Source: Acidimicrobiia bacterium (GTDB lineage Bacteria; Actinomycetota; Acidimicrobiia; Spongiisociales; ZC4RG35). From it: a DNA stretch of 64,000 nt. Below, piece after piece: positions 17,233 to 38,451 of this stretch (the stretch's first letter is position 1; every line of letters begins with the position of its first letter). A model generated the notes under the pieces. The model saw only the letters and a program-made list of their open reading frames with translations, searched no databases and was not told the DNA's origin. The stretch is taken from contig JACCTH010000082.1 of assembly GCA_013812505.1 (NCBI GenBank), positions 17,242-81,241 of the forward strand. Direction: 5' to 3'. The translations under genes and the position numbers were made by a program.

Positions 17233-18018
17233 GTGATCGACATTCCGCGTATGCGAGCCGGGCCTCCGATCAAGGTCTCGGCCACGTCCTACATGGCGTT
17301 CCTGAGATGCCCTGCGCAGGCCCAGGCGCGGTATGACCAAAAGGCTTTTCCGAAAGAAACCGTCGACTCATTCCGGGGGGCGCTAGTTCACCGACTCATC
17401 GCTCGGCGCCTGCGCAGCGGTCCTTTCGAGGATGTTGAACACGCGGCGCGGGTCGAGATCGGCGAAGCCCTCAACGAGAAGATGGTGGCTCTCGGCGTCA
17501 ACCGCCCTTCTCTGCTGGCCCCGATCATCGCCGAGGCCGCGGACCTATTTCACCGTTTCTGTCGCTTTCCGATCGTTGGCTTCGAGGAGGCCGAGATCAC
17601 TATTGGTCACGAGCTCCCCGACGACGTGACACTCGTCGGCAAGATCGATGGCGTGTTCGTCGACGGCCAGGCCAAGGTGCTCCGCGATTGGAAGACCGGA
17701 CCGTTAGGGGAGCCTTTCAACCAACTGCTGTTCTATGCCCTCGTTTGGCTCCTCGCCCGCGGCGAACAAGCGAGGGTGGAAGCGTTCTCCCTGCAAACCG
17801 GAGAGCAGGCTCGGAAGGAACCCTCGCTGGCCGACCTGCAAATGGTCGGTGAGCGGTTGGCCGACCTCGTCAATCAAGTTCGATCGGTTTGGGAGGGCGA
17901 GGCAACCCCTCGCAAAGTTGCAGGTCCATGGTGCGCGCATTGCCCGGTGCTCGCCAGCTGCACCGAAGGGCAAGAGGCCTCGCTGATGTTGGTCTCGGGT
18001 TACCGTGCCCGGCAGTGA
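17233..18018 (+). CDS. PD-(D/E)XK (RecB/Cas4-like) nuclease family protein
   Basis: VGKIDGVF...VLRDWKTG and C-terminal CAHCPVLASC cluster-like cysteines. Confidence 0.75.
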   Translation: MIDIPRMRAGPPIKVSATSYMAFLRCPAQAQARYDQKAFPKETVDSFRGALVHRLIARRLRSGPFEDVEHAARVEIGEALNEKMVALGVNRPSLLAPIIAEAADLFHRFCRFPIVGFEEAEITIGHELPDDVTLVGKIDGVFVDGQAKVLRDWKTGPLGEPFNQLLFYALVWLLARGEQARVEAFSLQTGEQARKEPSLADLQMVGERLADLVNQVRSVWEGEATPRKVAGPWCAHCPVLASCTEGQEASLMLVSGYRARQ

Positions 18019-32411: not shown

Positions 32412-34094
32412 GTGGATGGAAATGGGATTTCGGGGCCCCCGGTTGGCCGGGTAATCGGGACCGAGGACGCCACCCCGCTCGAGTTTTGGGTGGGGGTGGC
32501 GCCCGATCGTTTCCTCCAGCTCGACGACGTGGTCGCCCTCAGCCGGCCCCTTCCCGGCGGGCAAGTGGTGCATATTTATGGGATCGTCGCTCAGGTGCGA
32601 GCGCGCTACGAAGGCGCCAACTTCGACTCCGACGTTTTCCTGATCGAGAGCGGGCTCCTGCCTGCCGAGGTGTTCGAAACCGCGCAAGTGACCGCGACTC
32701 GCTTCGAGCCCGAGGTGTTCGTCCCTCCGCGCCCCGGCCAAGAAGTTACGGTCGCCCAAGGGCCCGATCGTGATAAAGCCTTGTTCTTCGACCGGATGAC
32801 CGAACGGCTCCCTGTCGGTCTCTCGCGCAACGGAGAGCCGCTGTTCGTCAACCTGGAATTCCTGGACGGACGCCGTGGCGCCCACGTCAACATCTCGGGG
32901 ATCAGCGGGGTAGCGACCAAGACCACCTACGCCACCTTCCTTCTCCATTCTCTTTACAACTCGGGCGTCCTCGGCAATCGCAGCGTCAACACCAAAGCGT
33001 TGATCTTCAACGTCAAGGGCGAGGACCTGCTTTTCCTCGACAAGCCCAACTCGGCGATTGACGACGAGCAGGCCGCGCTGTACAGCAAGCTCGGACTGCC
33101 GGCCGAGCCGTTTCGGTCTTTCCAGATCTTTGCTCCGCCTCGCAAGGGCGGCGACGTGGTTGTCCCTGACGTCGCCAGCCGGGTCAAAGGTGTCACCCCC
33201 TTCTTCTGGACGCTCGAAGAGTTCTGCCACGAGGGTCTCTTGCCGTTTTTGTTCGTCGAGTCGGAGGACGAACGATCCCACTACACGATGGTGGTGCACA
33301 ACGTCATGGTTCAACTGCAGAAAGCGACACCGATCGGGGAGGGTGCCGTCCGAGTCGAAGACCGCGAGGTCCGTACCTTTCGTGAACTGGTCGATGTGAT
33401 CACCTTCAAGGTGCAGAACGATCAGGAATGGTCGGGTCCGGCGATCGGCGCCGGCACCGTCAACGCTTTCGTGCGGCGGTTGTACGGAGCGGTCCGGCAC
33501 GTCGAGCCCCTCATCCGCGGCGACCAGACCGCGCCCGAGAAGAATCGGATCAACCTCGACCATCAGGTGACGGTGGTTGACATTCACAACCTGCACGACC
33601 GGGCCAAGCGCTTCGTCGTCGGGGTCACGATCCGCAAGGCGTTCGATGAAAAAGAGAGCTCCGGACAGTCGAACGAGTTGCTTTTCCTGGTCCTCGACGA
33701 GCTCAACAAGTATGCGCCCCGGGAAGGGGCCAGCCCCATCAAAGAGATCTTGCTCGACGTGGCCGAACGCGGCCGCAGCCTCGGTGTAATCCTGATCGGA
33801 GCACAGCAAACCGCGAGCGAGGTGGAGCGGCGGATCATCGCCAATAGCGCCATCCGAGTCGTCGGCCGGCTCGATCCGGCCGAGGCATCGCGCGAGGAGT
33901 ACGGGTTCCTCCCCGCGGTCCATCGGCAGCGCGCGACGATCATCAAGCCGGGGACGATGCTGCTTTCCCAACCGGAGTTGCCGATCCCACTGGTGCTCGA
34001 GTTTCCCTTTCCGGCGTGGGCGACGAGAGCGGCCGAGGCTGGCAAAGCAGATGACGACGATGAGCTGGCCGACCCATTTGCCGGTCTGGATTGA
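32412..34094 (+). CDS. herA: HerA-like ATPase
   Basis: Start of SbcD/SbcC/NurA operon; N-terminal barrel IYGIVAQVRARYEG, P-loop region GISGVATKTTYA, Walker B LLFLVLDELNKYAP, ILIGAQQTASEVERRIIANSAIRVVGRLDPAEA. Confidence 0.8.
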   Translation: MDGNGISGPPVGRVIGTEDATPLEFWVGVAPDRFLQLDDVVALSRPLPGGQVVHIYGIVAQVRARYEGANFDSDVFLIESGLLPAEVFETAQVTATRFEPEVFVPPRPGQEVTVAQGPDRDKALFFDRMTERLPVGLSRNGEPLFVNLEFLDGRRGAHVNISGISGVATKTTYATFLLHSLYNSGVLGNRSVNTKALIFNVKGEDLLFLDKPNSAIDDEQAALYSKLGLPAEPFRSFQIFAPPRKGGDVVVPDVASRVKGVTPFFWTLEEFCHEGLLPFLFVESEDERSHYTMVVHNVMVQLQKATPIGEGAVRVEDREVRTFRELVDVITFKVQNDQEWSGPAIGAGTVNAFVRRLYGAVRHVEPLIRGDQTAPEKNRINLDHQVTVVDIHNLHDRAKRFVVGVTIRKAFDEKESSGQSNELLFLVLDELNKYAPREGASPIKEILLDVAERGRSLGVILIGAQQTASEVERRIIANSAIRVVGRLDPAEASREEYGFLPAVHRQRATIIKPGTMLLSQPELPIPLVLEFPFPAWATRAAEAGKADDDDELADPFAGLD

Positions 34095-34097
34095 GCG

Positions 34098-35222
34098 ATG
34101 GTCAAAATTCTCCACACCGCCGATTGGCATGTTGGACGAACGATAAGGGGTCTTTCGCGCGAGGATGAGCATCGGGCCGTCTTGGCTGAGATCGCGGAGA
34201 TCGCGGCGCAAGAAGAGGTCGACCTGGTGTTGTTGGCGGGCGACGTGTTCGACGCCCCCGCCCCGAGCCCGATCGCCGAAGAAATCGTTTATCAAGCCCT
34301 GCTTGCTCTCGCCGAAACCGCACCGGTGGTGTTGGTCGCCGGCAACCATGACAGCCCCGGAAGATTGGAGGCGATAGCGCCGCTCCTGCGCCTGGGTCGA
34401 GTACGAGTGGGCGCCAAAATCTCCTCCGAGGGCATCCTCGACTTCAACGCTATGGCGACGAGGGTGGCGCTGGTCCCCTTCATCACCAAACGGGGAATCA
34501 TTCGCGCCGAGCAAATCCTCAACCTCGACAGCTCCGAACTGCGGAGCGAATACATCGATCGGGTTCAGAAGATCGTAAGAACCCTGTGTGCCGGGATGAC
34601 TGCGGACACCGTGAACGTCGTCCTCGGTCATCTAATGGTTAAAGGCGGAGTCACCGGTGGCAGCGAGCGGGCCGTGCATCTCTTCGATTACGCGATTCCC
34701 ACCAACAGCTTTCCTGGCCACTTCAACTATGTGGCACTCGGACACTTGCATCGCCCGCAGCGAATCCCCGCCCCCCAGCCCATTTGGTACGCGGGTTCTC
34801 CGCTGCAGCTCGACTTCGGCGAGGAGAAGGATCGCAAGGCGGTGATGATCGTCACCGCCGAGCCCGGTCTCCCGGCCCAGGTTGAGTCCCGAGCTCTCAA
34901 CGCGGGTCGCAAGCTCAAGACGCTGCGCGGCACTCTGGAGTCACTCCGCGATGCAGATGTGGGCGAGGCCTATTTGCGAATTGAGCTCGATGATCCGTAT
35001 CGGGTCGGCCTCTACGACGAGGTACGAGAGATCTTTCCGAATGCGGTCGATGTCAAGTTGCGTACTCAGTCCGCGGCGGCAGGGGCGCGGGCGCTAGGTC
35101 GCATCGGCCGTCCGCCACAGGAGTTGTTTGCCGACTACCTGGAAGGCAGATCGATCAAAGACGAGCGGCTCAACGGCTTGTTCGCCGAGCTCTTGGCCGA
35201 AGCCCAGGAAGCCGCCTCGTGA
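34098..35222 (+). CDS. sbcD: exonuclease SbcD / Mre11-type phosphoesterase
   Basis: ILHTADWHVGRTIRG...LLAGDVFDAPAPSP...VLVAGNHDSPGRLEA...VALGHLHRPQ. Confidence 0.93.
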   Translation: MVKILHTADWHVGRTIRGLSREDEHRAVLAEIAEIAAQEEVDLVLLAGDVFDAPAPSPIAEEIVYQALLALAETAPVVLVAGNHDSPGRLEAIAPLLRLGRVRVGAKISSEGILDFNAMATRVALVPFITKRGIIRAEQILNLDSSELRSEYIDRVQKIVRTLCAGMTADTVNVVLGHLMVKGGVTGGSERAVHLFDYAIPTNSFPGHFNYVALGHLHRPQRIPAPQPIWYAGSPLQLDFGEEKDRKAVMIVTAEPGLPAQVESRALNAGRKLKTLRGTLESLRDADVGEAYLRIELDDPYRVGLYDEVREIFPNAVDVKLRTQSAAAGARALGRIGRPPQELFADYLEGRSIKDERLNGLFAELLAEAQEAAS

Positions 35223-37546
35223 GACCGCTGACCCTGAATATGCGTGGGTTCGGGATCTTCTCCGAGCCGACTGAGATTGACTTCACCGACGTAGAGCTCT
35301 TTGCCCTGACCGGACCTACCGGCTCTGGCAAGACCACCGTCCTCGACGGTATCTGTTTCGCCCTTTATGGCGCGATCCCCCGTCACGGTGAGGGATCGGT
35401 GGCGCCGGTCGTGAATCAACAAAAGAACGAAGCGTCGGTGGTGCTCACGTTTGCGTTCAACGACGCCACCTACTCGGTGGCGAGGCGAGTGAGGCGCACG
35501 GCGAAAGGAGCCTCCACTCCCGACGCCAGCCTCGAACGCGATGGCACGGTCTTGGCGGCCAACGCTTCCGCCGTCACTGCCAAGGTCCAAGAACTGCTCG
35601 GCCTCGACTTTCGTCAGTTCACCACGTGTGTGCTGCTGCCGCAGGGCGAGTTTGCCCGCTTCCTGAACGAGAAACAGGGAAAACGCCAGGAGCTGCTCGG
35701 GGCGTTGCTCGATCTCGGCCTCTATGACGTCATCGCCGGCTTGGCCACCGGGCGGGCGCGCGAAGCCGAGGGAAAACTGGCGGTCTTGTCTCAGCAACTG
35801 GTCGAACTGGCCCGAATCACGGAGACCGATCTCGAAGGGCTTCGCACCCGCCAGAAAGAGTTGGATGCGCTCAGCAAGACGCTGGGCAAGTCGCTCGCCC
35901 AGCTCGAGCAATTGGGCATCGACGCGACGAAGCAACGAAACGCCCTCGAGACACTGACTGCGACCCGTTCGGTGCTGGTTGGCCTCAAGCCACCCCGCGG
36001 TTGGAAGGAGATCGGGGACCTGGGCAAGCGGCTCGCGGCGAGCAAGGACACGGTTGCAACCGAGATCGAAGCGGCTGCACAGGAGCACACCGAGCTCCTG
36101 GCGGTGGCCCACCCGGCTCGCACGCAAGTTGCCCGCTACCTCGAAGCTCGTTCCAAAGAGGCGGCCACCACGGTACGCATCACCTCGCTTGTGAACGAGG
36201 TCATCCAAACCAAGGCCGTTGCCGTCGCGGAAGCCGAAGCGCTCGCCCTCGCCGAGAGAGCGCTTGAAGCCGCGATCAACGAGGATCGCGCCGCCCACAT
36301 CCGAGCCGGTCTCAAGCTTGGGGATTTATGCCCGGTGTGTGGGGAGAAGATCACTACCCTTCGCGCCTCCGCTTCGGGCGGGATTCTCGACACGCGGAGC
36401 AAAGAGGCGGACAAGGCGCGGGCGCGCTCCAACAAAGCGGCCGCAACCCTGCAAACGTTCGAATCCGAGCTGACGCGCGAAGAGGATCGACTCCGTGACC
36501 TCGCGGCGGAGCTGGAGGGGATCGATCCTGCGGATGCCTTGGCGAGCCAGCTCCACGCGATCGACGATCACAAAGCCGGGCTGGATCGGGCCCGCGATCG
36601 CCTGGCGAATGCCCGCTCCACCGCCGAGTTCCTAGATAAAAAAACCGTCGAGCTGAATCGCCGTCTCGAGGAGGTGCGCGAGGGGCTTCAAGCCGTTTGG
36701 CATGATCTCACGCCGCTCGGGCCGCCGCTGCTCGACCTCGCCCAACCCGTGGAAGCCTGGGACGCGATCCTCACTTGGCGTGAGATGCGCCTGCCCGCGC
36801 TCGACTTGGAAGGCGAACAGGGCGGCCAGCGTCTGGCGGCCATCAATGCCGAGATCGACGAGGCCCAAGCCCAGTTGGGGTCGGATCTCGAAGCGGCAGG
36901 GCTTGACACCGACCTGGCGGGAGCGCGCGAAGCTTTGGCGGTCGCCCTCACCACTGTCACGTCTGACATCGCCGGCGTCGAGGAAGCGCGCGAGGCCGTC
37001 GAGCAGGTTGGCTTAGAACGCGATCGCGTGAACGCCGAGCGCGAGCTCGCCAAGAAGCTTGCAGGTGAGTTGGCTGCCAACAAGTTCAAGAAGTGGATCT
37101 TCGATGAGGTGTTCCGAGCGTTGGTGGAGGGAGCGAACCTGCGCCTCGCCGATCTGACCTCGGGGCAGTACGAGCTGGCCGTCACAGATAATGATTTCGA
37201 AGTCATCGACCGTTTCGCAGCCGACAAACGTCGCGGGGTCAAATCGCTCTCGGGAGGAGAAACCTTTCTCGTCTCGCTGGCCCTGGCGATCGCCCTCGCC
37301 GACGAGGTGGCGGCGGCCGCGGGGAGTCACGTCGCTCTCGACTCGTTCTTTCTCGATGAGGGGTTTGGCACGCTCGACACCGAGTCGCTCGACGTGGTCG
37401 CCCGAGTGATCGCCGAGCTCGGAGCCGCGGGGAAAACTGTAGGCATCGTCACTCACGTCGAGGAGCTGGCCGATCAGATGCCGGTGCGATACGAGGTGCG
37501 CCGGGTCGGTGGCTCTGGCACCGTGACCCAGGTTGGTGCCGCATGA
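35219..37546 (+). CDS. sbcC: SbcC / Rad50-type SMC ATPase
   Basis: LTGPTGSGKTTVLDGICFALYGAIPR, zinc hook CPVCGEKI, SLSGGETFLVSLALAIALAD. Confidence 0.93.
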   Translation: MRPLTLNMRGFGIFSEPTEIDFTDVELFALTGPTGSGKTTVLDGICFALYGAIPRHGEGSVAPVVNQQKNEASVVLTFAFNDATYSVARRVRRTAKGASTPDASLERDGTVLAANASAVTAKVQELLGLDFRQFTTCVLLPQGEFARFLNEKQGKRQELLGALLDLGLYDVIAGLATGRAREAEGKLAVLSQQLVELARITETDLEGLRTRQKELDALSKTLGKSLAQLEQLGIDATKQRNALETLTATRSVLVGLKPPRGWKEIGDLGKRLAASKDTVATEIEAAAQEHTELLAVAHPARTQVARYLEARSKEAATTVRITSLVNEVIQTKAVAVAEAEALALAERALEAAINEDRAAHIRAGLKLGDLCPVCGEKITTLRASASGGILDTRSKEADKARARSNKAAATLQTFESELTREEDRLRDLAAELEGIDPADALASQLHAIDDHKAGLDRARDRLANARSTAEFLDKKTVELNRRLEEVREGLQAVWHDLTPLGPPLLDLAQPVEAWDAILTWREMRLPALDLEGEQGGQRLAAINAEIDEAQAQLGSDLEAAGLDTDLAGAREALAVALTTVTSDIAGVEEAREAVEQVGLERDRVNAERELAKKLAGELAANKFKKWIFDEVFRALVEGANLRLADLTSGQYELAVTDNDFEVIDRFAADKRRGVKSLSGGETFLVSLALAIALADEVAAAAGSHVALDSFFLDEGFGTLDTESLDVVARVIAELGAAGKTVGIVTHVEELADQMPVRYEVRRVGGSGTVTQVGAA

Positions 37547-38451
37547 AGTTCTCGGTCCAGGCGTGGGCACCCGAGTACGGGCCGACGGCCGGCCAGGAGC
37601 TCGGCGAAGGTGACACGGTCGATGTCAACCCCGAGCTCCGCGAGAGCGATTGGCGTCCGCTCGCAGTCGGCACCGACCCGGCTCCCGAAGCCCTCTTCGT
37701 TGACGGTGTCAGAAGAGTTGACGCCAACCTCTGGATCGAGAGCCCGGAAGGGGCAATCGTGCTCGCTCTGGCCGCGAGCTATGCCGCCGGGGCTGTGCTC
37801 AGCAACCATCGGGCGACGGTCATCGCCGAGGAGGTCAGGCGGGGCATCTTCACCTCGGCGCCGAACGCCGAATCGGTTACCACCCGCTATGGCGACTATC
37901 AGGTCCATCTCACCGAGGGAGACCTGCCCGAGAAGCTGTGGCTCGGTCTGCAAGGCCAGATGTCGGTGCTGGAGGGAATGGTGGCGGCGGCGCACATCGA
38001 CGTCCCACTAATTGTCGTGGACGGGCCGTTGTCGCACCGGCGCCATGTTCCCGGGGCGGTGGGATACATCAAGACCCAACATGTCCATTACCTCCCGGAG
38101 CCGCTCCGTCCGATCCTTGGCCGCCTCCAAGCCGGCGAGCGCACCCCGATCTTTCTTATCGGCGGGGGAGCTTGGAACCGGCTGTCCTGGTACGCGAAGC
38201 TTCCTCTCAAGTCGTCTACCTCCGTCGACGGGCTGATCCGGGCAGAAGTGGCAGCCGCGGACCTCGATTCGGCCCGTCGGGTCGCCGACCTGATGACGGC
38301 CACGATCCTCCGCTTCGCCTCGGAAGCCCACAAAGACCCGCGAGCGCCACAGAACCTTTATCCGATCGGCGGTCTCGAGCGACGCCTGCGCCACCGCCTT
38401 GGAGATCGCGAGCTCATGATCAGAGGTTTGCGGCGACTGGCGACGAGTTAG
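37543..38451 (+). CDS. nurA: NurA-like 5'-3' nuclease
   Basis: ALFVDGVRRVDANLWI, IVVDGPLSHRR, GYIKTQHVHYLP, HKDPRAPQNLYPIGGLERRLRHRLGD; 4-bp overlap with sbcC. Confidence 0.75.
   Translation: MKFSVQAWAPEYGPTAGQELGEGDTVDVNPELRESDWRPLAVGTDPAPEALFVDGVRRVDANLWIESPEGAIVLALAASYAAGAVLSNHRATVIAEEVRRGIFTSAPNAESVTTRYGDYQVHLTEGDLPEKLWLGLQGQMSVLEGMVAAAHIDVPLIVVDGPLSHRRHVPGAVGYIKTQHVHYLPEPLRPILGRLQAGERTPIFLIGGGAWNRLSWYAKLPLKSSTSVDGLIRAEVAAADLDSARRVADLMTATILRFASEAHKDPRAPQNLYPIGGLERRLRHRLGDRELMIRGLRRLATS

Follow-up and report, generated by a model that had tools for sequence, protein, structure and literature searches.

Locus Organization

The analyzed window (the whole stretch of 64,000 nucleotides of Acidimicrobiia DNA) contains four contiguous genes on the same strand, together spanning positions 32412–38451 and encoding HerA, SbcD, SbcC and NurA (Table 1). 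A spacer of 3 bp (34095–34097) separates herA from sbcD, and the sbcD-sbcC and sbcC-nurA pairs overlap by 4 bp each; the arrangement described in an earlier note made on this DNA is thus reproduced by the open reading frames in its coordinates as well as in its gap and overlaps. The overlaps suggest that herA-sbcD-sbcC-nurA are probably co-transcribed. The scan for promoters and terminators gave no signal above chance, and no SOS (LexA) box was found near or upstream of herA.

Table 1. Predicted genes of the herA-sbcD-sbcC-nurA cluster (positions within the window).
Gene	Position	Strand	Product	Predicted identity
herA	32412..34094	+	560 aa, GTG start	bacterial (Deinococcus-type) HerA/FtsK-superfamily hexameric DNA translocase
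sbcD	34098..35222	+	374 aa	Mre11-type phosphoesterase nuclease
sbcC	35219..37546	+	775 aa, GTG start	Rad50-type SMC ATPase, CPVC zinc hook, short coiled coil
nurA	37543..38451	+	302 aa	NurA-family RNase H-like nuclease

HerA and NurA

Homology to the solved HerA-NurA complex of Deinococcus radiodurans (PDB 7f6d) is decisive for the predicted identities of HerA and NurA, in the latter case with a structure model in addition to sequence comparison. In a phmmer search of the sequences of solved structures, HerA residues 9–543 aligned with D. radiodurans HerA (drHerA, 7f6d_B) at E=5.2e-150, and a HerA profile matched drHerA (7f6d) at E=3.9e-191, the homology being full-length (HAS barrel and RecA-like domain). 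Residue equivalences for both proteins were counted along the alignments, with the D. radiodurans residue list taken from PMC9960219. By this count drHerA K175, T176, K217, D220 and D487 correspond to K170, T171, K202, D205 and D429 of the window HerA, and E488, R495, R513 and R552 to E430, R437, R455 and R494; all nine of these mapped ATPase/translocation residues are invariant across 11 aligned sequences. The P-loop SGVATKTT occupies residues 165–172, and D429/E430 belong to the Walker B motif LVLDEL. The trans-acting R154 of drHerA, a residue that is not family-defining and whose role was assigned from the structure (PMC9960219), is absent, its position being taken by E149. The P-loop core SGVATKT is without the usual glycine before the lysine; since it is common to drHerA and to all of the extracted HerA sequences (119/119), sequence comparison presents the glycine-less P-loop as a family trait and not as a defect.

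The NurA product matched D. radiodurans NurA (drNurA, 7f6d_H) at E=7.6e-20 and TM1739 (1zup) at E=1.9e-4 by phmmer, and at E=1.1e-43 and 2.2e-19, respectively, in a profile search. Its AlphaFold2 model (pLDDT 87.7) has an RNase H-like NurA fold, which Foldseek paired with 7f6d_G (E=1e-18) and 1zup (E=1e-15). Residues D53, K201 and R309 of drNurA correspond to D54, K177 and R267 and are invariant in 13 sequences, as is W8, equated with drNurA W8 by position (the pairwise alignment stops short of it).

The earlier note had expected matches to the Pfam families NurA (PF09376) and DUF87, neither of which was matched by the window proteins themselves. The window HerA and NurA received no confident family call in Pfam or NCBIfam (HerA_Thermprot of NCBIfam reached E=0.19 with HerA); among the aligned proteins, PF09376 matched 11 of 13 NurA sequences (best E=9.1e-6) and the Pfam HAS-barrel model weakly matched 4 of 11 HerA sequences. 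The window pair is missed because the models only just extend to this bacterial family.

SbcD and SbcC

SbcD scored 182.6 bits (E=1.1e-53) against TIGR00619 (sbcd, cut-off 77.65), was above the cut-off for PF12320 (SbcD_C), and carries the motifs HTADWH (residue 6), GDVFD (48), GNHD (82), GH (177) and GHLH (215). SbcC scored 280 bits (E=3e-83) against TIGR00618 (sbcc), under the curated cut-off of 478.5, and contains the Pfam domains AAA_23 and SbcC_Walker_B together with Walker A (GPTGSGKTT, residue 32), signature (SGGE, 678) and Walker B (LDSFFLDEG, 707) motifs; the CPVC zinc hook that had been noticed earlier is present at residues 371–374. The coiled-coil arms appear shorter than those of a typical SbcC (775 aa with the hook at 371, vs. 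1043 positions in the SbcC model), and a longer SbcC match of about 2.7 kb is seen where the same cluster occurs in several loci from Gemmatimonadota.

All four gene identities initially proposed are thereby backed, by D. radiodurans homology on the one hand and by the SbcD and SbcC models on the other, and gene content supports the proposal that the set for end processing is complete. The label "archaeal-style" fits the gene content but not the descent of the proteins: judged by scores against models and structures, each of the four is closest to a bacterial family. For SbcD and SbcC, the bacterial models outscore archaeal Mre11/Rad50 by far, and no structure of an archaeal HerA was matched by the HerA profile at E<=0.01.

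Distribution and Gene Order

Presence and absence were scored in a set of 60 genomes, made up of that of the window and those of its relatives. HerA, NurA and SbcD are all present in 49 of them and all absent in 8, i.e., they are co-present or co-absent in 57 genomes, and two of the three mixed genomes are about 80% complete. The four-gene set is not a product of chance, since HerA, SbcD and NurA each occur in 50 to 53 of these 60 genomes. Of 297 genomes sampled across the phylum, 56 contain a HerA of this type. Scanning the GTDB genomes revealed at least 529 relatives; the 80 that were retained are mostly Acidimicrobiia, accompanied by Nitriliruptoria, Micromonospora, Virgisporangium, Gemmatimonadota and Dehalococcoidia as well as by metagenome bins with other (and perhaps in some cases wrong) labels.

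Among the loci with at least 5 kb of sequence after HerA (n=53), SbcD-SbcC-NurA follow in this order in 47, SbcD-SbcC alone in 4, and neither in 2. Thus, a survey of gene order, as the earlier note had recommended for Acidimicrobiia, established the arrangement as standard in the clade and common beyond it, the 47 loci covering (among the matches listed) Acidimicrobiia, Nitriliruptoria, Micromonosporaceae, Gemmatimonadota and others. The median gaps in HerA-SbcD-SbcC-NurA are 52, 11 and 46 bp. Micromonospora lupini (L162) is among the carriers of all four genes. A second layout, NurA-HerA-SbcD-SbcC, is found in 15 loci of a sister lineage; the HerA tree contains one layout change, placed on a near-unsupported branch where long branches meet. 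HerA distances correlate with those of SbcD (Spearman 0.87) and NurA (0.84), as calculated without an unrelated control gene. One genome (G336, contig C1) contains two complete clusters, one per layout (L195, L196), and three loci (L121, L135, L198) contain related HerA genes with no SbcD, SbcC or NurA within the flanks examined.

In some relatives of the window, herA and sbcD lie as much as about 7 kb apart, with metabolic genes between them and sbcD-sbcC-nurA staying together, and therefore the herA and sbcD halves need not be co-transcribed. These intervening genes were considered as extra parts of the system and rejected as such, being ordinary metabolic genes in appearance (as judged by reading). 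The flanking genes examined are also metabolic, some of them (gpsA and ychF) being syntenic within the order.

As to whether this arrangement had already been described, a point on which the earlier note had made its proposal depend, the same four genes are on record for a bacterium, Oceanithermus profundus (PMC5448004), which counts in part against the proposal, whereas no description was found of the gene order of this clade. A mention of HerA and NurA in Actinobacteria is contained in a review (PMC8708640); our literature search, with incomplete coverage of older work, found no description of herA-sbcD-sbcC-nurA in Actinomycetota, and an earlier one is possible. The cluster is a well-populated branch of the already known bacterial HerA-NurA/SbcCD sets, to which the present analysis adds their breadth, the fixed order of a second layout, the loss of the genes together, and their coexistence with AdnAB.

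AdnAB and Other Resection Enzymes

The host genome encodes an AdnAB pair in two adjacent genes (L193, 2985–5960 and 5891–9016), each combining a UvrD helicase with PDDEXK_1. Because this pair is found in the same genome, we place the four-gene module beside AdnAB; of the two options raised at the outset (acting in place of RecBCD/AddAB/AdnAB or beside them), the first is not supported for this genome and the second is retained. PDDEXK_1 proteins are present in 60/60 genomes, the 8 that lack the cluster among them; the frames mostly have a length of about 1000 aa, the size of an AdnAB subunit. Within the window's order, AdnAB is present wherever it was properly looked for. Two genomes of this order (G049 and G055, genus g20), which have the cluster and in which no full-length AdnB was found, were considered as cases of AdnAB replacement; they were dropped because neighbors of the AdnAB locus are missing as well (both of those tested in G049, one in G055), and missing assembly is as likely here as a true absence of AdnAB.

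The RecJ model (TIGR00644) had no match in the host genome (estimated to be 93% complete) but matched in 13 of 14 controls; this would leave AdnAB and the HerA-NurA module as candidate 5'-strand resection enzymes. A stand-alone PDDEXK_1 nuclease gene is located just upstream of adnA-adnB (L193 948–1889, G000:C101), many relatives have a similar extra short-frame PDDEXK_1 match near AdnAB, and the window itself encodes a single-domain RecB-like PDDEXK_1 nuclease at 17275–17961 (+).

Discussion

The window SbcD and SbcC are members of the bacterial SbcCD family, whose usual operons are without HerA and NurA; the window operon adds both. To our knowledge, the Deinococcus/Thermus phylum is without RecBCD/AddAB, whereas the window host has AdnAB. 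A comparison with NurA-HerA of D. radiodurans (PDB 7f6d, 7wrw, 7wrx; PMC9960219) reveals the same families with the translocation, Walker and nuclease residues kept; the D. radiodurans herA-nurA genes lie apart from the Mre11/Rad50 homologues (PMC8708640), whereas all four genes are clustered in the window. The nurA-hepA-sbcD-sbcC genes of O. profundus (PMC5448004) represent the same four types in a bacterial host, in the order of the sister-lineage layout, whereas the window and most of its relatives place nurA last. The archaeal herA/mre11/rad50/nurA operon (Sulfolobus; PMC4351679, PMC2288612) is likewise clustered, with the same content and a probable pathway in common, but the window proteins are bacterial-type, and archaeal and bacterial NurA-HerA are reported to share below 20% sequence identity (PMC9960219).

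Overall, homology with conserved catalytic residues, gene overlaps, conserved linkage in two gene orders, joint presence or absence, and the parallel HerA, SbcD and NurA distances make it fairly likely, in our assessment, that the cluster couples SbcCD end processing to HerA-NurA resection as a second route beside AdnAB. Recognition and nicking of DNA ends are known activities of SbcCD; in the window host, SbcC-SbcD would nick or clear DNA ends, hairpins or protein-blocked ends once it has recognized them. A HerA ring hexamer would then pump duplex DNA into a dimer of NurA; the dimer would unwind the DNA and digest its 5' strand to provide a 3' single strand for RecA. Such pumping and 5'-strand digestion were shown for the D. 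radiodurans homologues (PMC9960219), and homology together with conserved catalytic residues suggests the same step here. The module would constitute a second route beside AdnAB as the main resection enzyme, probably for those ends that AdnAB handles poorly. We infer the order of action, a physical handover from SbcCD to HerA-NurA, and the in vivo role; the linkage of the genes in this clade and the binding of HerA to Rad50-Mre11 in Sulfolobus (PMC2288612) speak for this order and for the handover. The role of HerA-NurA is itself disputed. The damage resistance of herA or nurA deletion mutants (D. radiodurans, Thermus thermophilus) is modest or is even improved (PMC9960219), which counts against the resection reading, as does the lack of an SOS (LexA) box near herA, and a 2026 study found 3'-overhang formation difficult to reconcile with the Thermococcus kodakarensis complex (PMC12977600).

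It is rather unlikely that SbcCD and HerA-NurA are independent repair machines with different substrates and no handover, sharing a transcript for regulation only. Two such machines are favored by the separate location of the D. radiodurans genes (PMC8708640), by the metabolic genes that part herA from sbcD in several relatives, and by the ability of HerA-NurA to resect DNA in vitro by itself (PMC9960219); nevertheless, the binding of Sulfolobus HerA to Rad50-Mre11 (PMC2288612) speaks for contact between them. Moreover, HerA, NurA and SbcD share their gains and losses, and in nearly all herA-sbcD-sbcC-nurA loci NurA adjoins SbcC and not HerA.

An antiviral role, in which the HerA-NurA half would degrade foreign DNA with SbcCD supplying the ends, appears improbable. 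HerA-Sir2 and HerA-DUF4297 are known antiphage machines and, like TdpAB, combine a HerA-type ATPase with a partner effector. In favor of such a role, a profile search linked HerA weakly to the HerA structures 8xau and 9c1m, and Foldseek gave a weak fold match of the NurA model to the TdpAB complex (E=0.011). The sequence and fold similarity to these systems is, however, very weak, and the Sir2 and DUF4297 partners are absent from the cluster. Antiviral DNA degradation was proposed for T. kodakarensis HerA-NurA (PMC12977600), but here HerA-NurA is linked to SbcCD and to no known defense effector, the flanks examined are metabolic and partially syntenic, and PADLOC gave no NurA match and only weak HerA matches. 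The cluster also differs from patchy defense genes: some 85% of the 60 close relatives have it, and its rare losses affect it as a unit. Recent transfer of an archaeal operon into the window bacterium is hardly credible despite the equal gene content and the archaeal origin often ascribed to bacterial herA-nurA (PMC5448004, PMC12977600), given the drHerA match (5e-150 vs. E=0.19 for HerA_Thermprot), the bacterial affinities of SbcD and SbcC, and the spread of the cluster through Actinomycetota and beyond.

Returning to the coupled end-processing and resection reading, we tentatively extend it, with distinctly less confidence, to several phyla: the cluster may be a bacterial counterpart of the archaeal resection operon that is old and has been maintained by vertical descent, and a second, physically coupled resection machine beside AdnAB. 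If this is true, bacterial HerA-NurA would not be a recent archaeal import confined to bacteria without RecBCD/AddAB. Most work on HerA-NurA has dealt with archaeal thermophiles, Deinococcus and Thermus, and it is disputed whether the pair generates 3' ends for recombination or degrades foreign DNA. Cultivable carriers (the mesophilic Micromonospora, and Virgisporangium) may offer a genetic test bed for this role, and the fixed SbcCD linkage in many bacteria, with AdnAB alongside in the window's order, ties HerA-NurA to DNA-end processing.
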